Assembly (NCBI GenBank): GCA_030524225.1
Contig: JAUNGV010000019.1
Location: forward strand, 1 to 45,724
Direction: 5' to 3'
Source: Eubacteriales bacterium
Lineage (GTDB): Bacteria > Bacillota > Clostridia > Lachnospirales > Lachnospiraceae
Length of the DNA: 45,724 nt
The position numbers and the translations under genes are program-made. The notes beneath the pieces were generated by a model. The model was not told the DNA's origin. It did no database searches and worked only from the letters and a program-made list of their open reading frames with translations. This document shows positions 3,702-32,400 of the stretch, piece after piece (the stretch's first letter is position 1; every line of letters begins with the position of its first letter).

Positions 3702-3787
3702 ATCCATACCAAGTCCGGCCCAACCGCCCGATGGCGCTTGTTCCGGACGCGAATCGGAAGAGGGGCGGTTCCGATTCGGATAGTGCA

Positions 3788-3850
3788 GGTCAGAAACCGC
3801 CTGCGCGGATTTCTGACCGCAGTGCCGCAGACAAGCTGCGGCAGGAAGGA
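3788..3850 (+). promoter_or_regulatory. Double-hairpin leader element, copy A1
   Basis: Hairpin 1 (3788-3818) has arms GGTCAGAAACCGC and GCGG-A-TTTCTGACC around CTGC. Hairpin 2 (3823-3843) has arms TGCCGCAG and CTGCGGCA around ACAAG. The Shine-Dalgarno-like GGAAGGA follows at once (3844-3850). In this copy no start codon follows closely, because the unit is tandemly repeated. Related copies stand before other start codons at 22716, 26771 and 29403. Confidence 0.75.
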
Positions 3851-3928
3851 TAAGTCCGGCTCAACCGCCCGATGGCGCTTGTTCCGGACGCGAATCGGAA
3901 GAGGGGCGGTTCCGATTCGGATAGTGCA

Positions 3929-3991
3929 GGTCAGAAACCGCCTGCGCGGATTTCTGACCGCAGTGCCGCAGACAAGCTGCGGCAGGAAGGA
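3929..3991 (+). promoter_or_regulatory. Double-hairpin leader element, copy A2
   Basis: Identical to copy A1, displaced by one 141-nt repeat period. It lies about 70 nt before the pheA start codon. Confidence 0.75.
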
Positions 3992-4062
3992 TAAGTCCGG
4001 CCCAACCGCCCGATGGCGCTTGTTCCGGACGCGAATCGGAAGAGGAAGGTAACTGGGTAACT

Positions 4063-5196
4063 ATGGAACTGGACTTACAGAAATTCAGACAGGAAATCGA
4101 CGGGATTGACGCGCAGATCGTCGCGCTGTACGAGGAGCGGATGGCGCTCTCGGAGAAGGTGGCGGCCTATAAGATCGCCACCGGCAAGAAGGTGCTGGAC
4201 CGTCAGAGAGAGCAGGAGAAGTTAAACGCGCTGCAGGCGCTGGCTTCAAACGATTTTAACCGGCACGGAGTCCGGGAACTCTTTGAGCAGATCATGGCGA
4301 TGAGCCGCAAGAAGCAGTATCAACTGATTCAGGAGAGCGGCAGTATGAACCGCCTTCCTTTTATTGAGACGGATTCTCTGATTAAGGAGGGCATCCGCGT
4401 CGTCTATCAGGGGGCGGAGGGCTCCTATTCCGAGGCGGCGATGAAGCAGTTTTTCGGAGAAGAGGTTCGCAACTTCTCCGTGGAGACGTTCCGGGACGCG
4501 ATGACGGCGATCGAGGAGGGAACGGCGGATTACGCGGTGCTGCCGATCGAGAACTCCACGGCGGGGATCGTGAGTCAGATTTATGATCTGCTCGTGGAGT
4601 ACGAGAATTACATCGTGGGCGAGCAGATTCTGCGGATCGAGCACTGCCTGATGGCGCCGGAGGGCGCGACTCTTGAAACGATCCGGAAAGTGTACTCCCA
4701 TACCCAGTCGCTGATGCAGAGCGAGCGGTATCTGGCGGAGTATCCCGCATGGCATCAGGTGCCGATGCAGAACAACGCCTTTGCGGCGGCGAAGGTGGCG
4801 AAGGACGGGGATATCACGCAGGCGGCGATCGCGAGCGAGTACGCGGCGAAAAGATACGGCCTGCAGATCCTGCAGCGCGGCGTGAATCAGGCGGAGAACA
4901 ACTCGACCCGCTTTATTATCGTCACCAACCAGAAGATCTTCCTGCGCTCGGCACGCAAGATCAGCATCTGTCTGGAGATTCCGCATGAGAGCGGATCGCT
5001 CTACCACATGCTGTCTCATTTCATTTATAATGATCTGAGTATGACGAAGATCGAGAGCCGCCCGATTGAGGAGCGCAACTGGGAATACCGCTTCTTCATC
5101 GATTTTGAGGGGAACCTGACCCAGAGTTCCGTCAAAAACGCCCTGCGCGGGCTACGGGACGAGGCGCGCAATCTGAAAATACTGGGAAATTATTAA
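4063..5196 (+). CDS. pheA: Bifunctional chorismate mutase / prephenate dehydratase (P-protein)
   Basis: Converts chorismate to prephenate and then to phenylpyruvate, the committed steps of phenylalanine synthesis. Of the 377 residues, about 1-90 form an AroQ chorismate mutase helix bundle, 110-290 the prephenate dehydratase (ENSTAGIV at 163-170; the catalytic TRF within NSTRF at 280-284), and 297-377 an ACT domain with the phenylalanine-binding ESRP motif (331-334). Feedback inhibition by phenylalanine is therefore expected. The nearest purine-rich site, GGAAGG, lies about 14 nt from the ATG, which is long. The leader is occupied by the 141-bp tandem hairpin repeat. Confidence 0.95.
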   Translation: MELDLQKFRQEIDGIDAQIVALYEERMALSEKVAAYKIATGKKVLDRQREQEKLNALQALASNDFNRHGVRELFEQIMAMSRKKQYQLIQESGSMNRLPFIETDSLIKEGIRVVYQGAEGSYSEAAMKQFFGEEVRNFSVETFRDAMTAIEEGTADYAVLPIENSTAGIVSQIYDLLVEYENYIVGEQILRIEHCLMAPEGATLETIRKVYSHTQSLMQSERYLAEYPAWHQVPMQNNAFAAAKVAKDGDITQAAIASEYAAKRYGLQILQRGVNQAENNSTRFIIVTNQKIFLRSARKISICLEIPHESGSLYHMLSHFIYNDLSMTKIESRPIEERNWEYRFFIDFEGNLTQSSVKNALRGLRDEARNLKILGNY

Positions 5197-22659: not shown

Positions 22660-22715
22660 TCGGAGAAATACAATACGACTGGAAAGAGATCCGGATTTTA
22701 TCAGGAGATAGAAAG

Positions 22716-22742
22716 TGCCGCAGACAAGCTGCGGCAGGGAGG
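22716..22742 (+). promoter_or_regulatory. Leader element, hairpin 2 only (copy D)
   Basis: TGCCGCAG and CTGCGGCA around ACAAG (22716-22736), followed immediately by GGGAGG (22737-22742), 5 nt before the second permease start. The hairpin is identical to that of the pheA-leader copies; the first hairpin is absent. It sits inside an operon, between two permease genes. Confidence 0.7.
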
Positions 22743-22747
22743 TAGAA

Positions 22748-23662
22748 ATGGCTCTGGCAAAAGCACAGAAACAGAAAATGCCAAAAAATAAAGTTTATAT
22801 CGGCAGCAGGGTATTCGATGTGGCGCTTGCGATTTTCATGGTGCTCATCTGTATCGTATTCATCTATCCGTTCCTGAACGTAATTGCGGTTTCGCTCTCG
22901 AGCAACCGCATGATCACAACGGGGCAGGTTACCTTCTATCCGAAGGAGATCCTGTTCGACGGATACAAGCTCCTGCTCGAGGGGCAGAACATTTTCAGGG
23001 CGTACGGCAACACGGTCATCATCGCGATCGCGACGACGGTTATCAGTCTCTCCATGACCTCGCTGCTGGCTTACGTCATGATGATTCCGGACTTTGTGTT
23101 AAAGAAGCCGCTGGCGGTCTTCATGCTGATCACGATGTTCTTCTCCGGCGGTACGGTTCCGACCTACCTGCTGATTCAGAACCTCGGTCTGTATGATTCC
23201 TGGTGGGCACTGATCCTGCCGAACGCGGTGACGGCGTACAACACATTCCTGTACCGGGCGTACTACAAGGGAATCGCCCAGGAGATCAGAGAGGCGGCCC
23301 GCATCGACGGAGCGGGAGAGTTCCAGATCCTGACGAAGATCTATGTGCCGCTTTCCAAGGCGCTGTACGCGACATTCGGACTCTTCTCGGTCGTGACGGT
23401 GTGGAACAGCTACTATGAGGCGCTGCTGTACATCAACAATCCGGACAAGCAGCCGATTCAGATGATCCTGCGCAAGATTATGTTTACCTCGAGAATCTCC
23501 AATATGGATGCGGCGCAGACGGCGATCAGCAACGGTGCGCTGAACCAGCTGAACGTGCAGTATGCATGCGTTATCGCGACGATCGGACCGATCCTTCTGG
23601 TCTATCCGTTCATCCAGAAATTCTTCGAACAGGGCGTGCAGATCGGTGCGGTTAAGGGCTGA
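22748..23662 (+). CDS. Sugar ABC transporter permease (LplC/YtcP type)
   Basis: Second membrane subunit of the importer, 304 residues. I start at the ATG at 22748, directly behind GGGAGGT; the open frame extends 33 nt further into the leader hairpin but that part has no site. Six hydrophobic segments are visible, with the coupling loop EAARIDGAGEFQILTKIYVP and the C-terminal FFEQGVQIGAVKG ending typical of this subfamily. It follows the first permease by 88 nt, a gap holding the hairpin element. Confidence 0.94.
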   Translation: MALAKAQKQKMPKNKVYIGSRVFDVALAIFMVLICIVFIYPFLNVIAVSLSSNRMITTGQVTFYPKEILFDGYKLLLEGQNIFRAYGNTVIIAIATTVISLSMTSLLAYVMMIPDFVLKKPLAVFMLITMFFSGGTVPTYLLIQNLGLYDSWWALILPNAVTAYNTFLYRAYYKGIAQEIREAARIDGAGEFQILTKIYVPLSKALYATFGLFSVVTVWNSYYEALLYINNPDKQPIQMILRKIMFTSRISNMDAAQTAISNGALNQLNVQYACVIATIGPILLVYPFIQKFFEQGVQIGAVKG

Positions 23663-23833
23663 TGAAAAGCTGTCCCGTATGGCGGCAGAGGTCAGAACAG
23701 ATCAGGATGCCGGAACAGATCAGGAATGCTTCCGGCCGGAAAACATAAGAACATAAGATGGGCAGCTCCACTGCACGGAACGGAACAGATCCGCGCAGTG
23801 AGTGAAATAAAAGCAAAAGAAAGGGAGAACAGT

Positions 23834-25624
23834 ATGAAGTTCAAAAGTTTGAAGAGACTGCTTGCTTTGGCACTGGCAGGGGTGATGATGGCCGGTGTGC
23901 TGACAGGCTGCGGCGGATCCGCATCGTCGGACGGCGGTTCGGATGAGGAAGGCAGCGCGGCGGAGAGAGCGGCTGCGGCACAGACCACAATCGAGGTCGC
24001 GGTGTCCGATGCGGACAAGAACGACCCGGCTGCGACGGCGGCGAGCAACGGCATCGAACTGCCGGAACTGCCGGATGGCACGCTGAAATTAAACATCAGC
24101 ATCGCGGATTATCAGCAGTCCTCCGAGGGAACTCTCGTGCAGGAGGAGTGGCAGAAGAGAATGGAAGCGTATCTTGGCTGCACGCTCGACATCACATGGA
24201 CGAGAACGCCCGCAGTGGATTATTCGGCGAATGAGCTGGTCGTCCTGCAGTCCGGCAATGTTCCGGATGCGGCGACGGTGACGAAGGGCGCTTCGGTCAA
24301 CGAGTACGGCGAGGACGGCACGGTGTTAAACCTTGCGGACTACACGGATTACATGGTTTACTATCCGGACTACATGAACGCGACGAACGGCGGTCAGGAT
24401 TACGCAAAGAATGAGGACGGCTCCATGTACTACTTCATGGACGGCTTCTACAATCCGGATGACATTCAGGGCGCACAGTCCTTCACGGCGTTTGCATACC
24501 GCTTCGACATCCTGCAGGAGCAGGGCTGGGAGCCGGCAACGACGCTCGACGAGTTCACGCAGCTCTGCGCGGATATGAAGGATAAGATCGACGACGGCAC
24601 GCTGGATGTGGACTACGTTATCATGAACAGCACGAAGGACTATCCGATCTACAGAGGATTCGTCGGTATCTTCCACACCTGGGACTGCGTTTATTACAAC
24701 GGCGAGGAGTGGGTATTCGGACCGATCGAGGACAACTTCCGTACGATGCTGCAGTATCTGAACTCCCTCTATGAGGCGGGCTACATCGATCCTGAGTTCG
24801 GCACCGCGGACTTCAACCAGTCTCAGGTCAAGGCAACCACGAATGTGGCGGCTATCTGCCCGACTCTCTGGGCAGGCTCTGTAGCGAGCTGGAACACGGC
24901 AAAGACGGACGAGACGATGGAGTGGGGCCTTGCGTTCCTTCCTGAGGACGAGGAGTACGGCACGCCGTGGAAGTGGGGTTCCAGACAGCCCGGCAAGTCC
25001 CTGAATTCCTCCATGGGCATCTATGTCGGAGCAGAGACTGAGTATCCGGAATATGTAGTGGCGATGATCGACTATCAGTACTCTGATTACATGGTTAACC
25101 TGATGAACTGGGGTATCGAGGGCGAGACCTATACCGAGACAGACGGCGAGAAGACCTTTGTCGATGCGATCATGGACAGCGATCAGCCGGCAACCGAATC
25201 CGGTAAGTACGGTCTTACGGCATCTTCGGTCTGCAGAACCGGTGTTCCGTTCAACCCGATCGACTTCAACGCGATGCTTGACGTTGCTTCCCTGCCGGAA
25301 CCCTGGTGGAACGAGACGAACGGCTACTATGAGGGTAAGTACTGGGTAGAGTCTGATGCAAACGGCGGAGAGGATTCCATTTCCCCGTACGACAGACCGC
25401 CGGTGGCATACCTCTCTCCGGAGGAGCAGACGGATAAGGCAGAGCTCTCCTACAGCGGCGCATGCGAGACGAGAGTCAAAGAGCTGGCACTGCAGTTCAT
25501 CACCGGTGAGCGCGATATCGACGACGACGAGGCATGGCAGGCATACATCGACGATGTCAAGAGCCAGACCACGAACGACTTCGACAGCATCCTCGAGACG
25601 ATGAACGAGAAGACTGTGAAGTAA
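23834..25624 (+). CDS. Solute-binding lipoprotein of the importer
   Basis: A 596-residue extracellular binding protein. Signal peptide residues 1-25 end in the lipobox LTGC with C26 lipidated, followed by a low-complexity Gly/Ser/Asp/Glu linker. AAGGGAG stands 6 nt before the ATG at 23834; an upstream in-frame extension lacks a site. The large mature part is rich in Tyr, Trp and Asp, as in proteins binding long oligosaccharides. It is third in the operon after the two permeases (172-nt gap, no terminator seen) and is followed by a terminator at 25668. Confidence 0.92.
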   Translation: MKFKSLKRLLALALAGVMMAGVLTGCGGSASSDGGSDEEGSAAERAAAAQTTIEVAVSDADKNDPAATAASNGIELPELPDGTLKLNISIADYQQSSEGTLVQEEWQKRMEAYLGCTLDITWTRTPAVDYSANELVVLQSGNVPDAATVTKGASVNEYGEDGTVLNLADYTDYMVYYPDYMNATNGGQDYAKNEDGSMYYFMDGFYNPDDIQGAQSFTAFAYRFDILQEQGWEPATTLDEFTQLCADMKDKIDDGTLDVDYVIMNSTKDYPIYRGFVGIFHTWDCVYYNGEEWVFGPIEDNFRTMLQYLNSLYEAGYIDPEFGTADFNQSQVKATTNVAAICPTLWAGSVASWNTAKTDETMEWGLAFLPEDEEYGTPWKWGSRQPGKSLNSSMGIYVGAETEYPEYVVAMIDYQYSDYMVNLMNWGIEGETYTETDGEKTFVDAIMDSDQPATESGKYGLTASSVCRTGVPFNPIDFNAMLDVASLPEPWWNETNGYYEGKYWVESDANGGEDSISPYDRPPVAYLSPEEQTDKAELSYSGACETRVKELALQFITGERDIDDDEAWQAYIDDVKSQTTNDFDSILETMNEKTVK

Positions 25625-25667
25625 TAAGACAGACAGGCGGCTGCGCAGGCAGCCGGCAAATAAGAGA

Positions 25668-25709
25668 ACAGGCGTTGTCCCGGATGGAGAGGGGCGGCGT
25701 CTGTTTTTT
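25668..25709 (+). terminator. Terminator of the first importer operon
   Basis: ACAGGCGTTGTCCC (25668-25681) pairs with GGGGCGGCGTCTGT (25691-25704) along all 14 positions if G-U pairs are counted, followed by TTTTT. Confidence 0.75.
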
Positions 25710-25847
25710 AGAGTGCGCAAATAGCGGGTGCTGCAGCGCCGAAGAAAGTGGGAAGAAAGAGGCGTTTGAGAAGAAATGACGCGATTCCTGAAGCTATGGT
25801 ATACTATTTGTAATTGTCGGTAAAGTTTGATGGAGGTGAAGAAGGGC

Positions 25848-26618
25848 ATGAGTGCTCTCGTAAATAATGATTCGCTTTTTCAAATATTGGCAGAGAGGCG
25901 GGATTCCTCTGCGCAGGTTTTTCATACCACGCCCATCGTTATGCAGGCGTTTGCGGATGACTTTGCCCGCCGCTTTTGCTGGTCAAGCAATGCACTGGAA
26001 GGCAATACGCTGAGTCTGGATGAAACTGTATCGCTGATTGATTATGATGAAGTGCGCGCAGGTCACACTTTTTCGGAATATCAGGAGGCGAAGAACCTGT
26101 TTCGGGCTATCCAGAGATTTCTTTTACCACTGGGGAAAAAAGAAATCTCTGAAGAATGGGTAAAGCGCGTAAACGGCGAGCTGATGGAAACGTCAGGAGG
26201 TTATCGGGAGACAGAGGTGTATATCGGTAATCTGGCAGAAGCAGTATACTTTCCCCCCAACCCGAAGGAAGTTCCATCGCTTATGAAAGCGTACATGGAA
26301 ACTGCCAATTTTTCGCGCGATTCCATCAAGGAAATATTTGAGGAAGCGGCGTTGCAGCATATGAGATTTGAGCGTATACACCCGTTTATCGATGGGAATG
26401 GAAGATGTGGAAGAGTGATTTTGAATCAGCAACTTGTCAATAATGGTATGCTCCCTGTTTCGATCAGTGCGCGGGGAAAATATCGTCAGGCATTCCGGCT
26501 CTTTGACCGAAATGGAGATATATCGAGTATGATACATCTTTTGGCCTCTGCAGAAATTGAGTCAATGGAGAGAGTGTCTCAATTGTTGGAAAAATATGGA
26601 GATGCGCATAGTGTGTAA
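25848..26618 (+). CDS. Fic domain protein, predicted AMP-transferase with built-in inhibitory motif
   Basis: Fic proteins transfer AMP (or related groups) from a nucleotide to hydroxyl side chains of target proteins. The 256 residues (start at 25848, nine nt after GGAGGTG) contain the complete active site HPFIDGNGRCGR (178-189) with H178. An N-terminal helix carries the inhibitory motif S47-x-x-x-E51-G52 (SNALEG), so it is a class II Fic protein that restrains itself. The flap (EAVYFPPNPKEVPSLM) is also typical. Base composition is lower in GC than its neighbours, and it is unrelated to sugar use, suggesting a separate insertion. The target is unknown. Confidence 0.92.
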   Translation: MSALVNNDSLFQILAERRDSSAQVFHTTPIVMQAFADDFARRFCWSSNALEGNTLSLDETVSLIDYDEVRAGHTFSEYQEAKNLFRAIQRFLLPLGKKEISEEWVKRVNGELMETSGGYRETEVYIGNLAEAVYFPPNPKEVPSLMKAYMETANFSRDSIKEIFEEAALQHMRFERIHPFIDGNGRCGRVILNQQLVNNGMLPVSISARGKYRQAFRLFDRNGDISSMIHLLASAEIESMERVSQLLEKYGDAHSV

Positions 26619-26770
26619 TTATTGCTGATTGGCAGACCGTAACCTCTGACAATATACAAAAAGTGCATAGCGGATGTGTTTTTTTTCTATACAAAGATCA
26701 GAATTTCCTCCGTATAATGAACGAAAAGGGCGGCCTGCAGCAGACAGGCAGGAAGCGCCCGGAGAGAGAC

Positions 26771-26832
26771 GATCAGAAACCACTTGTGGAGTTCTGATCG
26801 CAGTGCTGCAGACAGACTGCGGCGGAAAGGGT
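26771..26832 (+). promoter_or_regulatory. Double-hairpin leader element, copy B (GH78 gene)
   Basis: Hairpin 1 has arms GATCAGAA/TTCTGATC with inner CCAC/GTGG; hairpin 2 pairs CTGCAG with CTGCGG around ACAGA. GGAAAGG follows and the ATG is 6 nt further. The stem sequences differ from the pheA copies but the pairs are kept. A TATAAT at 26713 lies upstream without a clear -35, and another GC-rich hairpin (about 26728-26755) stands between. Confidence 0.7.
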
Positions 26833-26836
26833 CATT

Positions 26837-29392
26837 ATGCGAATCACAGATCTGAGGACGAATCAGTTACGGGACAACGGCAATGTGGATGCTGTCAGTC
26901 CCGTTTTTTCATGGAGAATTGAAGGAGACGAGGAGAACATTTATCAGAAGAGCTACCGGATCGAGGTGAAGAGCCACGAAGGGAATGTGCTCTGGGACAG
27001 TGGAGAGATTGCGAGCGGTGCAATGACCTCTCTTCCCTATGCGGGGGAAGCGCTGCGCTCCGATACGAGGTATCTGTGGAGCGTGACGTGCCGGACGGAC
27101 CGGGAGCTGCGGGCGGAGTCCTTCTTCGAGACGGGGCTGCTGCAGCCGGAGGACTGGAAGGGCTGTTTTATCGGGGAGCAGGAGGATCACGTCTATCATC
27201 TGTACCGCAAAACATTCTCCTGCGGCAAAAAGGTGAGGCGTGCCAGGCTCTATCTCTGCGGTCTTGGGCATTTCGTCTGCTGGATCAACGGCGAGACAGT
27301 GTCGGATCATGTGCTGGAGCCGGGATGGAGCAATTACGATAAAACCTGTTTCTATACGGCGTATGATGTGACGGAGAGGCTCGCAGAGGAGAATGCGATT
27401 CTGGTCAAGCTCGGGGACGGCATGTTCAACGTGCCGGGCGGGCGCTACGTCTACTATGAGCGCTCTTACGGAAAATGCAAGCTGTTCGCGCAACTGGAAG
27501 TGGTGTATGAGGACGGAACAGGGGAGACGATTGTCTCGGATGAATCATGGAGGATGGCGCCGAGCCCGATCCGGTTCTGCTGTATTTACGGCGGAGAGGA
27601 TTACGACGGGCGGCTGTGGAACCCGGCGTATGCGATGCCGGGAGAGCGGGAGGAGTTCGCGGAGTCCGCGCGCCGCGTCGAGCCGCCGAAGGGGAAGCTG
27701 CGCGCCATGCCGATGGAACCGATGAAGGTGATGCAGACGTATGAGCCGAAGGAGTGGAAGGAAATCGAGCCGGGCGTCTGGCGCTGTGACTTCGGCACGA
27801 ACTTCTCAGGCTGGGTGCGGATTCGTGTGTGCACGGACGGACAGAGCGCGGGGCATAAAATCGTGATGACGCCGGGAGAGATCCTGACGCCGGAGGGACG
27901 GGTGGACCAGCGCGTCACCGGAAAGGGATATGCGTGGACTTACATTCTGAACGGGGAGAGGGAGCAGGAGTTTGCCCCTGATTTTACCTATACGGGCTTC
28001 CGCTATGTGGAGGTGCGGGGGGCGTCGCCCTGCGCCGGGGAAGGAGAGCAGAGCGGTGTCATTGAGATCCTGCGGTTTGACGGGGAGTTTATTTATCCGG
28101 ATCTGGACAGAGGCGGGGAATTCCTTTGCTCCAATCCGCTGTACAACAGCATTCACGGCATCGTTCTGCAGGCGATCCTGAGCAATACGAAGAGCTATTT
28201 TACTGACTGCCCTCACAGGGAGAAGCTGGGCTGGCTGGAGCAGACGCACCTGATCGGCCCCTCGATCATGTACAACCTGCAGGTACAGGCGCTTTACGGC
28301 AAGGTAGAGCAGGATATGGAGGACGCGCAGAGGGAGAGCGGCCTGGTGCCGGATATCTGCCCGGAGTATGTGACCGGGTTTGACAAATGGCACAAGGGAT
28401 TTCTCGACTCTCCGGAGTGGGGAAGCGCCATCATTCTGAATCCGTGGTACTGCTATCTGCGCTACGGGGATCTGTCGCTGGCGCGCCGCCATTATCCGGC
28501 CATGCGCAGTTATCTGCTGTATCTGGCGGGCAAAACCCACCATGAAATGCTGCACCACGGACTGGGGGACTGGCTCGACATCGGCCCATGCACGCCGCAT
28601 TCCCAGAATACGCCGGTTCCCGTCGTGGCGACCTGCATTTATTACTATGATCTGCGTGTGATGGAGACGCTGGCGCAGCTGCTCGGACAGGAAGAGGACG
28701 CGCAGGAGTACCGGGAGCGGGGAGAGCGCGTCCGTACGGAGTATAACGCCCAGTTTCTCGATGATCAGACGGCGCGGTACGCGAACGGAAGTCAGGCGGC
28801 GCAGGCGATGAGCCTGATCACCGGACTGGTGCCGGAGGAGATGGAGGAGCGCGCGGCCAGAGTGCTGCGGGAGGATGTGACAAAGCGGGGCTACGCCGTG
28901 ACGGCGGGCGATGTCGGCCATCCCTTCCTCGTGGCGGCGCTGATGAAATATGGAATGTCCGATCTGCTCGGAAAGATGACGGACATCACGGAGACGCCCG
29001 GTTACGGCTATCAGGTCATGCACGGGGCGACGACGCTGACTGAGGAATGGGACGGTCCGGATCCGGCTCATCCGCACGGCTCGCAGAATCACCTGATGCT
29101 GGGCAGCATCGAGGAGTGGTTCTACGGAGGTCTCGGCGGGATGGAACTCGTCCGCAGCAGACTGCCGATGGGAGAGATCAGGATCTGTCCGCAGCCGGTG
29201 GAGGGCGTGGACTGGGTCCGGGCATGGACGACGCATCCCTATGGAAAAATTAAGGTGGAGTGGCACAGAGAGGCGGACGGAGGGATTCGGGCGGATGTGC
29301 AGATCCCGCCGAACGTCACGGCGCATCTGCTGAGAGCAGATGGCAGCGAGGAGAGATGTGTGGGCAGCGGAACGTACAGTTATCTGCTTTGA
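26837..29392 (+). CDS. GH78 alpha-L-rhamnosidase
   Basis: Removes terminal alpha-L-rhamnose from oligosaccharides or glycosides. The 851 residues begin with a fibronectin-like and two beta-sandwich domains (to about 400; CWINGE...EPGWSNYDKTCFYTAYDVT is characteristic), then the (alpha/alpha)6 barrel. The catalytic region includes DCPHREKLGWLEQ (about 457-469), with the acid expected among its Asp/Glu residues, and the later TLTEEWDGPDPAHPHGSQNH segment carrying the second carboxylate. There is no signal peptide: a cytosolic enzyme. It is followed after 75 nt by the GH106-like gene in what looks like a two-gene operon. Confidence 0.92.
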   Translation: MRITDLRTNQLRDNGNVDAVSPVFSWRIEGDEENIYQKSYRIEVKSHEGNVLWDSGEIASGAMTSLPYAGEALRSDTRYLWSVTCRTDRELRAESFFETGLLQPEDWKGCFIGEQEDHVYHLYRKTFSCGKKVRRARLYLCGLGHFVCWINGETVSDHVLEPGWSNYDKTCFYTAYDVTERLAEENAILVKLGDGMFNVPGGRYVYYERSYGKCKLFAQLEVVYEDGTGETIVSDESWRMAPSPIRFCCIYGGEDYDGRLWNPAYAMPGEREEFAESARRVEPPKGKLRAMPMEPMKVMQTYEPKEWKEIEPGVWRCDFGTNFSGWVRIRVCTDGQSAGHKIVMTPGEILTPEGRVDQRVTGKGYAWTYILNGEREQEFAPDFTYTGFRYVEVRGASPCAGEGEQSGVIEILRFDGEFIYPDLDRGGEFLCSNPLYNSIHGIVLQAILSNTKSYFTDCPHREKLGWLEQTHLIGPSIMYNLQVQALYGKVEQDMEDAQRESGLVPDICPEYVTGFDKWHKGFLDSPEWGSAIILNPWYCYLRYGDLSLARRHYPAMRSYLLYLAGKTHHEMLHHGLGDWLDIGPCTPHSQNTPVPVVATCIYYYDLRVMETLAQLLGQEEDAQEYRERGERVRTEYNAQFLDDQTARYANGSQAAQAMSLITGLVPEEMEERAARVLREDVTKRGYAVTAGDVGHPFLVAALMKYGMSDLLGKMTDITETPGYGYQVMHGATTLTEEWDGPDPAHPHGSQNHLMLGSIEEWFYGGLGGMELVRSRLPMGEIRICPQPVEGVDWVRAWTTHPYGKIKVEWHREADGGIRADVQIPPNVTAHLLRADGSEERCVGSGTYSYLL

Positions 29393-29402
29393 TGATCGCA
29401 GC

Positions 29403-29462
29403 GCAGAAACCGCCTGCGCGGATTTCTGCACGCGGAGCCGCAGGCGAGCTGCGGCAGGGAGG
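29403..29462 (+). promoter_or_regulatory. Double-hairpin leader element, copy C (GH106-like gene)
   Basis: Hairpin 1 (29403-29429) has arms GCAGAAACCGC and GCGG-A-TTTCTGC around CTGC; hairpin 2 (29437-29455) pairs GCCGCAG with CTGCGGC around GCGAG. GGGAGG (29457-29462) ends the element, 5 nt before the start codon. It fills the gap between the two rhamnosidase-type genes. Confidence 0.75.
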
Positions 29463-29467
29463 TGACC

Positions 29468-32400
29468 ATGCTTTATAAGGAGAATCAGACAGAAGAACTG
29501 TCGCAGGACATTTTCAGGAATCCGCCGGCAGAGTACCGCGGGACGCCGTTCTGGTCGTGGAATTGCGAGATCAGCGAGGAGCTGATCCACTCGCAGATTT
29601 CTGTTTTTCATAAGATGGGATTCGGCGGGGCGCATCTGCATCCGCGCACCGGATTGGAGACGGAGTATCTGGGGGAGGAATTTCTGCGGCTGGTGCAGTA
29701 TGCCGACGAGCAGATGAAGGAACGGGGGATGCTCTGCTGGCTCTACGACGAGGATCGCTATCCGTCGGGGGCGGCGGGAGGTATCGTTACGGAAGACTGG
29801 CGGTTTCGCGCCAAGCATCTGCTGCTGACGAGAGAGAAAAAAGAGGGGATGTGCGCATCCCGGGAGGAATTCTGGGCGAGCGTGGCGCGGGGAGAAAAGC
29901 CTGCGGGGTATTATCTGTGTCACTACCGGATCAAGACCAGAGACGGCTATCTGCAAAGCTACCGTTGCTACAGGCAGGAGGAGAAGAGTGGAAAGGCGTA
30001 TGATGAGGCGGAAAATGTCGCACTGAACCGGAAAATGGGGCAGGCGGTGGACGGGAGAATCTGTGCAGAGCCACAGGCGGAGACCATCGAAGAGCGTCAG
30101 GAGGGACGGCTTTGGATCGCCTATGTGGAGTGGATGCGTGAGTCGCCGTGGTTCAACGATCAGACGTATGTGGATGTGATGAATCAGGAGGCGGTCCGGC
30201 GTTTTCTGGAAGTGACCCATGAGAAATATTATGCGAAACTGGGGGAGGAATTCGGGAAGTCGATTCCGGCTATTTTTACCGATGAGCCGCAGATCAAGGG
30301 CAGTATGGCGCTGGCGGACGGGGAGAGCGAGGCGGATGTGACACTCTCGTACACCGAGGATCTGCCGGAAACCTTTGCGGCGCGCTACGGCACCGATTTG
30401 CTGGAGGTGCTGCCAGAGCTGCTCTGGGACTGGCCGGAGAACAGGGCGAGCGTGCATCGCTATTATTATCACGACCATCTGGCGGAGCGGTTTGTCAGCG
30501 CGTATTCGGATACGATTGCCGACTGGTGCGAGGCGCATCACATCGCGATGACAGGACATTATATGTCGGAGCCGACGCTTTACTCGCAGACGCTGCGGCT
30601 GGGAGAGGCGATGCGGTGCTATCGGAAGCAGCAGCTGCCGGGCGTTGATATTCTGTGCGGGGATCCGGAGTACTCGACGCTCAAGCAGGCTGTCAGCGTG
30701 GCGCGTCAGAAGGGCAGAGAGGGCGTGCTGAGCGAGCTGTATGGTGTGACGCACTGGGATTTTGACTTCAAAGGCCATAAGCTGCAGGGAGACTGGCAGG
30801 CGGCGCTCGGGGTGAGCATCCGCTGCCACCATCTCGCGCTCATGTCCATGGAGGGCGAGGCGAAGCGTGACTGGCCCGCTTCGATCAGTTACCAGTCTCC
30901 GTGGTGGGAGAAGTATTCTTATATTGAGAATTATTTCGCGCGGGTGAACACGGCGATGACGAGAGGGCAGGCGCAGGTATCGGTCGCGGTGGTGCATCCG
31001 ATCGAGTCGTACTGGATTTCCTACGGGCCGGTGGCACAGACAGGGGCGCTGCGCGATCAGATGGACGCAAATTTCCGGGATCTGATCGACTGGCTTTTGT
31101 TCGGACTGACGGATTTTGATTTCCTCTCGGAGTCGATGCTGCCGGAGGAAGAGACGGGCGTGGAGGAGAACGCCGTTCTCCGGGTTGGCCGCATGTGCTA
31201 CCGCACTGTGATCGTGCCGGGACTGCGCACGATCCGCGCGACGACGCTGGAGCTGTTAGAAGCCTTTGCGGCTGCGGGCGGAAGAGTGATGTTTCTGGGA
31301 GAGATTCCGGCTCTGGTGGACGGCGTACCGAGTGAGAGGGCGCAGCAGCTGGCAGCGCGCACGGAGAGACTGCCCTACAGCGCGTATGCGCTGGAGCAGG
31401 CGCTGCAGGAGGAGCGTGATATAGAAATCCGGGGCGCGGACGGGCGGCGCAGCAGCAACCTCTTTTACCAGATGCGCAGGGACGGCGGCTGCAGATGGCT
31501 GTTCGTCTGCCACGTGCGCCGGGAGAACGACATGACAGACCGGGGCGGAGAGATGACGATCCGTCTGCGCGGTCACTGGGATGTGACGGAGTACGACGCA
31601 CTCTCCGGAGAAATCCGGCCGATGGCGGCAATCTGTGAAAACGGCTGGACAGTGGTGAAACGCCGTATGTACCACGAAGACAGCCTGCTCTGGAAACTGG
31701 AGGCGGCAGAAGAAACCGCGAAGACGTGCAGGAATAACGGGCAGGGCGGCAGTGAGAAACTGCCGCAGGAACAAAAAGGAGAGACAGGCGTACTCCAGTC
31801 GTACGGACTCGTGGCGGGCGTGCCGATTGTGCCGCCGCTGAAGGAGACGGTTCTGGCTGTCATCGGAGAGCCGGAGAGCGGGAAGAGAACGGAGCCAAAC
31901 GTCCTGCTGCTGGATCAGGCGCAGTGGAAGTTGGACGAAGGCGAGTGGCATGCGCGGGAGGAGATTCTGCGGCTCGATAATCAGATCCGTACCATCGTGG
32001 GCTATCCGCACCGGCAGGACGCTTATCTGCAGCCGTGGAGAATTCGGAATGCACCGGAGGAGCACACCGTCACGCTGCGCTATGAAATGAAGTCCCGGAT
32101 TGCGACGGAACACCTGCGTCTGGCTATGGAGAGACCGGACAAGGCGCGCATCTACTGGAACGGCGGGGAAGTGAAAGGGCACACAGAGACAGGACATGGT
32201 GGCGAATGCGGACAAAACGTGGACTGGTACGTCGATTCCTTCCTTCGCATTGTTGATCTGCCCGGTTTACAGCAGGGGCGGAATGAGTTGGTGCTTGTGA
32301 TTCCGTACGGCAGAAAGACCAATCTGGAAAATCTGTATCTGCTCGGAAACTTCGGTGTCTGTGCGCGGGGCACACAGGCGGAAATCGTGCCGGAGCCGGA

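Follow-up and report, generated by a model that had tools for sequence, protein, structure and literature searches.

Repetitive extragenic palindromic (REP) sequences and bacterial interspersed mosaic elements (BIMEs), with their REP-associated tyrosine transposases (RAYTs), are short palindromic repeats that lie between genes in many copies and in lineage-specific sequence versions. Pseudoknot riboswitches such as preQ1-II and SAM-II, in turn, act at the Shine-Dalgarno (SD) sequence. To our knowledge, small interspersed repeats are not known for sitting at start codons; the pneumococcal BOX, RUP, and SPRITE repeats are enriched between convergent genes (PMC3049150). Here, we describe a multihairpin element from the 45,724-nucleotide (nt) contig JAUNGV010000019.1 (assembly GCA_030524225.1; the whole contig is called the window below) of a rumen bacterium of the Lachnospiraceae and from the remainder of its metagenome-assembled genome (2.9 Mb, 81% complete). 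This is probably a mobile-type element that lies between the native SD sequence and the start codon of its host genes, supplies a new SD sequence, and folds as RNA beside it; in this bacterium and in related gut bacteria, the site where translation begins looks as though it had been captured by a mobile repeat.

The element resembles REP sequences and BIMEs in that it is short, palindromic, intergenic, and present in many copies, each lineage having its own version. Unlike REP/RAYT systems, it is without a Y1 transposase match in this 81%-complete genome, occurs in one orientation 5' of start codons, and carries an SD sequence. With preQ1-II and SAM-II, it shares a long-range pairing directly beside the SD sequence, but it precedes unrelated genes, reaches tens of copies per genome, and occupies sites that are empty in relatives. 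The BOX, RUP, and SPRITE repeats are likewise stem-rich, interspersed, and able to sit in transcripts, whereas they are enriched between convergent genes (PMC3049150) and the element precedes start codons and supplies an SD sequence. Multiple copies and sites empty in relatives are also what is expected of a miniature inverted-repeat transposable element (MITE); judged by eye, the two termini of the unit, GNNTGAAAAA.. and ..CTCCGGAATGGAG, do not form an inverted repeat. Since the REP/RAYT model fails on the transposase in this incomplete genome, the MITE model on the inverted termini, and the riboswitch model on a shared function, we describe the element as a mobile-type structured leader that carries a ribosome-binding site (RBS), filed among the small interspersed repeats. 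Rfam 15 at gathering score yielded no match over the element, either in the window or in 15 further loci (three of which matched other RNAs away from it), and no description of such an element was found in open-licence PMC papers.

The full unit spans about 135 to 140 nt and comprises four hairpins in a fixed order, HPx-HP0-GATNGCA linker-HP1-HP2, followed by the SD sequence and then by either the host start codon or the next unit. HPx is a 16-bp stem with the loop CGAT or TGAT in 64 of the 67 stems found by a search that admitted NGAT loops only, a few of these stems being chance hits. HPx and HP0 stand 5' of HP1 and HP2 in many copies, and the order from HPx to HP2 is kept in same-genus relatives whose stem sequences differ. 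Units also stack head to tail, as before pheA, where the period is 141 bp. To search for further copies, we used a covariance model (R1) of HP1 and HP2 built from 19 copies without SD sequence or start codon; these copies had been picked for a perfect or near-perfect HP2, and 17 of the 19 also for G-rich sequence behind it. In this training alignment, HP1 shows double changes in 6 of 13 pairs. At E ≤ 1e-3, R1 matched 92 copies across the genome; relaxing the threshold to E ≤ 1 gave 126 places, of which 120 were kept after five opposite-strand echoes of palindromic copies and one place without a locus had been dropped. The exact pattern GCCGCAGN5CTGCGGC alone occurs at 54 places in the genome compared with one for the reversed pattern, ruling out chance for the second hairpin. 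A related linker-HP1 pattern was found in seven stretches of named records, from four Lachnospiraceae metagenome-assembled genomes including RUG710, RUG11393, and RGIG5640.

In this genome, the copies are strongly associated with start codons and with the strand of the gene. Behind the 92 R1 copies we found an SD-like core and an open-frame start codon in 68 cases, a further unit in 11, neither in 12, and a run of N in one, while random same-strand positions in the same loci passed this gene test in 879 of 9,200 cases (9.6%) and the other side of the element in only 2 of 92. Genes in position, like the upstream genes below, were counted as open reading frames (ORFs), not as annotated genes. 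Leaving out the 19 training copies (n = 73) gave 53 copies with SD sequence and start codon, 9 with a further unit, 10 with neither, and one N run, and a stricter test that accepted ATG only was passed by 61/92 copies compared with 2.7% of random positions. The purine-rich, SD-like stretch abuts the second hairpin in most copies tabulated, and the distance from HP2 to the start codon is 12 to 13 nt in 43 of 89 copies and 10 to 14 nt in 60 of 89. For 89/92 copies, the 400 nt on the 5' side contain the end of an ORF on the same strand, but random positions reach 72%, so that this says little, and we dropped it as a sign of operon position.

The genes behind the element have no function in common. 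In the window, they encode a chorismate mutase/prephenate dehydratase, an importer permease, and two rhamnosidase-type enzymes. Among 30 downstream proteins scanned across the genome, those above curated cutoffs included adenylate kinase, ribosomal protein L9, Jag/EloR, RNase Z, MscL, orotidine monophosphate (OMP) decarboxylase, PlsY, peptidase T, and D-mannonate oxidoreductase, where a riboswitch would be expected to serve one pathway. Because copies sit before such unrelated genes, the idea of an earlier note on this sequence that the element controls pheA, the permease, and the rhamnosidases as a set is not supported.

That note had placed five copies in the window (A1, A2, B, C, and D), all of which are where it put them, as both the sequence and a search with R1 confirm; copies A1, B, and C are themselves among the R1 training copies. 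The five best R1 matches in the window are exactly these: 3784-3842 (A1; 88.3 bits), 3925-3983 (A2; 88.3 bits), 29397-29455 (C; 79.5 bits), 26767-26823 (B; 64.9 bits), and 22714-22735 (D; 26.5 bits). No sixth copy exceeded 15 bits in a full-scoring search of the whole window, the next match reaching 14.6 bits. Copy D indeed has the second hairpin alone, and the start codons at 26837 (B), 29468 (C), and 22748 (D) follow the SD sequence by 6, 5, and 5 nt, as had been claimed. What the note overlooked were the two 5' hairpins of the full unit, HPx and HP0, and the genome-wide scale: R1, a covariance model of the kind that it had proposed, gave the 92 copies reported above. The features in the window are the following, with the kind of evidence in parentheses.

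3713 to 3748, plus strand: HPx of unit A1, a 16-bp stem with loop CGAT, 13/16 pairs Watson-Crick (sequence, HPx list)
3750 to 3778, plus strand: HP0 of unit A1, CGAATCGGAA..TTCCGATTCG (sequence)
3788 to 3818, plus strand: HP1 of unit A1, GGTCAGAAACCGC..TTTCTGACC (sequence, R1)
3824 to 3842, plus strand: HP2 of unit A1, GCCGCAG-ACAAG-CTGCGGC (sequence, exact pattern, R1)
3843 to 3849, plus strand: SD-like AGGAAGG of unit A1, with unit A2 and not a gene behind it (sequence)
3854 to 3889, plus strand: HPx of unit A2, a tandem copy with a 141-bp period (sequence, HPx list)
3929 to 3959, plus strand: HP1 of unit A2 (sequence, R1)
3965 to 3983, plus strand: HP2 of unit A2 (sequence, exact pattern, R1)
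3984 to 3990, plus strand: SD-like AGGAAGG of unit A2 (sequence)
3995 to 4049, plus strand: third, broken unit with HPx, half of HP0, and AGGAAGG at 4043-4049 (sequence, HPx list)
22717 to 22735, plus strand: HP2 alone, copy D, between two ABC importer permease genes (sequence, R1, domains)
22736 to 22742, plus strand: SD sequence AGGGAGG of copy D, with the ATG at 22748 (sequence)
26771 to 26799, plus strand: HP1 of copy B (sequence, R1)
26805 to 26823, plus strand: HP2 of copy B, GCTGCAG-ACAGA-CTGCGGC, with one G-U pair (sequence, R1)
26824 to 26830, plus strand: SD sequence GGAAAGG of copy B, with the ATG at 26837 of an alpha-L-rhamnosidase gene (sequence, domains)
29401 to 29431, plus strand: HP1 of copy C; the upstream ORF stops at 29392 (sequence, R1)
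29437 to 29455, plus strand: HP2 of copy C (sequence, exact pattern, R1)
29456 to 29462, plus strand: SD sequence AGGGAGG of copy C, with the ATG at 29468 of a GH106-like gene (sequence, domains)

Unit A2 is thus not immediately 5' of pheA, whose product has the CM_2 and PDT domains of a chorismate mutase/prephenate dehydratase: the third, broken unit intervenes before the ATG at 4063, and its AGGAAGG is possibly the SD sequence of pheA, despite the 13 nt between them. Shortly 5' of copy B and its rhamnosidase gene lies a gene for a Fic/DOC-domain protein (25827-26615).

A second form of the unit, which we call type II as opposed to the type I described so far, has HPx and the layout in common but features an HP0 loop CCGGAGCGT, GATGGCA, HP1, CCGTCGCG, ACGCTCCGGAATGGAG, a spacer, and the ATG. 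Its HP0 core occurs at 44 places in this genome, 28 on one strand and 16 on the other. Inspected by eye, all 20 type II loci of one list and 27 of the 28 of another (two loci being in both lists) end in an SD-like sequence and ATG. A type II model (R2) also matches copy C (29361-29463; 18.7 bits, E = 0.008), and tandem arrays in which the two types take turns occur at loci L044 and L135; we therefore take both as one family, of which type II may be the older form. In type II, the HP0 loop matches as a complement the strand directly 5' of the SD sequence, and the partners differ between lineages: CCGGAGCGT:ACGCTCCGG, TCGAAGCGC:GCGCTTCGA, GCCTGAGC:GCTCAGGC, CCGAAGCGT:ACGCTTCGG, GCCGAGC:GCTCGGC, GGAGCAT:ATGCTCC, and CCGCAGGCGT:ACGCCTGCGG, the last taken partly from a loose-detector list that includes three chance rows.

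To quantify this pairing, we aligned 30 of 34 type II references (L063, L200, L233, and L240 were omitted for length or a wrong end); rows had been selected by the HP0 loop, which biases the variation seen on the loop side. In these 30 copies, 96.6% of the pseudoknot cells pair, 13 cells are changed on both sides, and covariation is 0.237 compared with 0.157 ± 0.013 after shuffling (reached in 0 of 500 shuffles, which ignore relatedness), whereas shifting the partner by 1 to 3 columns leaves just 24 to 46% paired. Taken together, the 31 type II pairs give 0.404 compared with 0.150 shuffled (0/500, relatedness uncorrected). The same strand can alternatively pair within HP2 (91% of cells; covariation of 0.142 compared with 0.084 shuffled), and a regulatory use of these two mutually exclusive pairings is possible. 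In contrast, we rejected a CTCC:GGAG hairpin that would sequester the SD sequence as a conserved feature: 91.7% of its cells pair, but without double changes and with covariation below the shuffled mean. G-U cells outnumber A-C cells 17:1 in the pseudoknot on the alignment (24:4 in a looser count with two copies mispaired), 18:6 in HP2 of type I, 5:2 in HP1, and 7:3 in HP0, the latter two again on the alignment. From these counts, the pseudoknot looks selected as RNA. Type I leaders, for their part, leave the SD sequence more open in predicted nested folds than shuffled upstream sequences do (0.586 compared with 0.497; 37/47 copies, p = 2e-4).

The distribution of the element is patchy. Type II occurs in other genera and in another family of the order, the HP0 core being present in 11 of 392 genomes and 9 of 174 genera (reversed control, 0), and R2 finds it in at least 9 of 246 genomes, with up to 16 places scored in each and per-genome counts being lower bounds. 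Two sites occupied here, those before rplI and pheA, are empty in most relatives. Three units precede rplI here, one diverged unit does so in genome G047, and two do in G054, while none was seen at E ≤ 0.1 in the other 27 of 30 rplI leaders (30 loci of 39 genomes with rplI). The upstream gene, presumably gdpP-like, and rplI abut or nearly so in G020, G019, G012, G017, G016, and G002, as judged from 300 nt per leader, with 6 of the 30 leaders wrongly anchored. Before pheA, where this genome has two units and a fragment, G055 gave a weak match to a diverged type II-like unit (L169:1382-1477; 19.8 bits, E = 0.017), and the remaining 15 of the 17 loci covered gave no match at E ≤ 0.1. Similarly, hfq is preceded by a unit in G093, and none was seen in its congener G031. 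In G093, near-identical units lie at the ends of contigs C1, C5, C6, C32, and C134 (first 130 bases), as if they broke the assembly.

How might such an element come to be tolerated? An SD-like sequence is found at both ends of the unit, and among the 34 copies that are not behind another unit, 19 have an SD-like core on the 5' side of HPx, compared with 13.5% of random positions; the native SD sequence thus often seems to have been left behind while a second one was supplied. We infer that a new copy would enter the gap between the native SD sequence and the start codon, so that the host gene would lose its own RBS and use the one at the 3' end of the element. The stem that abuts the SD sequence (HP2, or the HP0 loop paired to the 3' strand of HP2 in type II units) would fold the leader on itself and leave the SD sequence usable, and insertion could thereby be tolerated even before essential genes. 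If true, this would give mobile elements a separate route to being tolerated before essential genes such as those for adenylate kinase and L9, and the dozens of matched 5' leaders would offer a natural set for studying how structure on the SD side affects translation.

Several observations weigh against this reading. In a sister group of four genomes (G014, G010, G008, and G011), a start codon follows only 2 of the 25 R1 copies, while 4 are followed by a further unit and 19 by neither; there, the element acts more like an ordinary intergenic repeat. For all relatives' copies tested (48 of 52 matches), the corresponding numbers are 16, 4, and 28. The preference for G-U over A-C is absent from HP2 of type II (6:7), from HPx (16 G-T compared with 18 A-C, chance stems removed), and from looser counts, which can run beyond the stems, of outer HP1 in type I (22:24) and of the HP0 stem (20:24); judging from these mismatches, HPx could equally be maintained at the DNA level, and the counts for the other stems point both ways. 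Of 47 type I copies, only 2 have a 6-nt complement of the 3' arm of HP2 on the 5' side of HP1, which means that the pseudoknot is no general feature, and the SD sequence of 30 type II copies is no more open than after shuffling (0.418 compared with 0.404) in a program limited to nested folds, in which the pseudoknot cannot form. Finally, the copies examined show no constant target-site duplication, and Y1_Tnp (PF01797), the sole transposase family searched and present in 24 of 41 genomes, has no match in this 81%-complete genome.

Part of this evidence would suit a passive REP/MITE-like repeat that inserts anywhere and survives where it leaves a working RBS, a reading that we consider possible but doubtful. 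The earlier note had offered such a repeat as one of two explanations, and the multiple copies, the intergenic and patchy occurrence across genera, and the sites empty in most relatives agree with it, as do the near-identical units at G093 contig ends and the copies away from start codons in the sister group. Yet the reverse orientation before genes is nearly empty in this genome, and the SD sequence that often seems to stay 5' of HPx without further use, next to a newly supplied one, is not predicted by random insertion followed by selection; the BOX, RUP, and SPRITE repeats, in contrast, are enriched between convergent genes (PMC3049150). The random placement relative to genes and strands that the note had named as speaking against its proposal is not seen here; in the sister group, the copies are mostly away from start codons. 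The other explanation in the note, a true cis-regulatory RNA, would have the 3' strand of HP2 pair in response to a signal either with the HP0 loop, freeing the SD sequence, or locally or with the SD sequence, closing it, the host genes becoming a regulon as copies spread. This we consider rather unlikely. It stands in part, since type II has a covarying pseudoknot beside the SD sequence with an excess of G-U over A-C cells; several different sequence pairs maintain this pseudoknot, its HP2 alternative covaries as well, the strand directly abuts the SD sequence, and loops and linkers are conserved across genera. The downstream genes, however, share no function, the CTCC pairing with the SD sequence lacks covariation, and 45/47 type I copies tested lack the pseudoknot complement. 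A combination of both, in which a selfish element homes to the gap between SD sequence and start codon, swaps the host RBS, frees or hides its SD sequence through the pseudoknot, and so builds a regulon as a transposable translation switch, appears unlikely.

Still less probable is a signal for mRNA processing or stability, in which intergenic stems would set cleavage or shield the downstream cistron. Long perfect stems can be RNase III substrates, which the stems of the unit might be, and sites such as the rplI leader and that of the permease pair lie between same-strand genes; this reading, however, leaves unexplained the SD sequence inside the unit and the fact that 60 of 89 start codons are 10 to 14 nt behind HP2, and the upstream same-strand ORFs are no evidence for it given their frequency at random positions. 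An intrinsic terminator is disfavored by position alone, an SD sequence and a start codon following HP2 (no terminator scan was made). We rejected a coding role of the repeat as highly improbable: NTG often begins HPx, and among 22 units in which HPx has a start codon, 12 stay open through the hairpins as far as the end of HP2, but HP1 follows HPx in any of the three phases, and stops are common. We retain as the most probable reading the mobile-type, RBS-carrying leader, of which the insertion mechanism and any regulation are the inferred parts.

The element also matters for annotation: its leaders reach the threshold of no Rfam family, and at least one assembly has near-identical copies at the ends of its contigs. 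An Rfam family with some likeness is TD-2 RNA (RF03162), which we take to be linked to Treponema denticola: it shares three successive hairpins and a similar size and composition with the opposite strand of the element. With scores on the opposite strand of type II of 45.8 bits (L044:1566-1665) and 37.8 bits (L246:1462-1565) against a gathering score of 48.7, and with no match above cutoff in 41 genomes, membership was rejected, the likeness perhaps reflecting a distantly related element of other bacteria. No plasmid matched the element, and no viral contig had the type I HP1 pattern; one IMG/VR match (L286) consisted of two lone hairpins, unlike the unit. Three records labeled “unverified bacteriophage” from human feces (L287, L288, and L289; MT837007.1, MT836788.1, and MT838414.1) hold a type II unit before bacterial-looking genes, presumably an enolase gene in one record, with MBOAT-like genes next to the unit in the other two. 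As these genes look chromosomal, the records are probably bacterial contigs and give no evidence of phage carriage; the family may also occur in human gut bacteria. In G031 (L233, from position 799), a frame opened by HPx crosses the unit into the downstream gene, presumably SDR-like, over 302 codons. Two known RNAs were found near units in relatives: Clostridiales-1 RNA (RF01699; 113 bits) in G021 (L221:1019-1186, minus strand) and, near a type II unit, a T-box leader (99 bits) in G182 (L257:577-861, minus strand).

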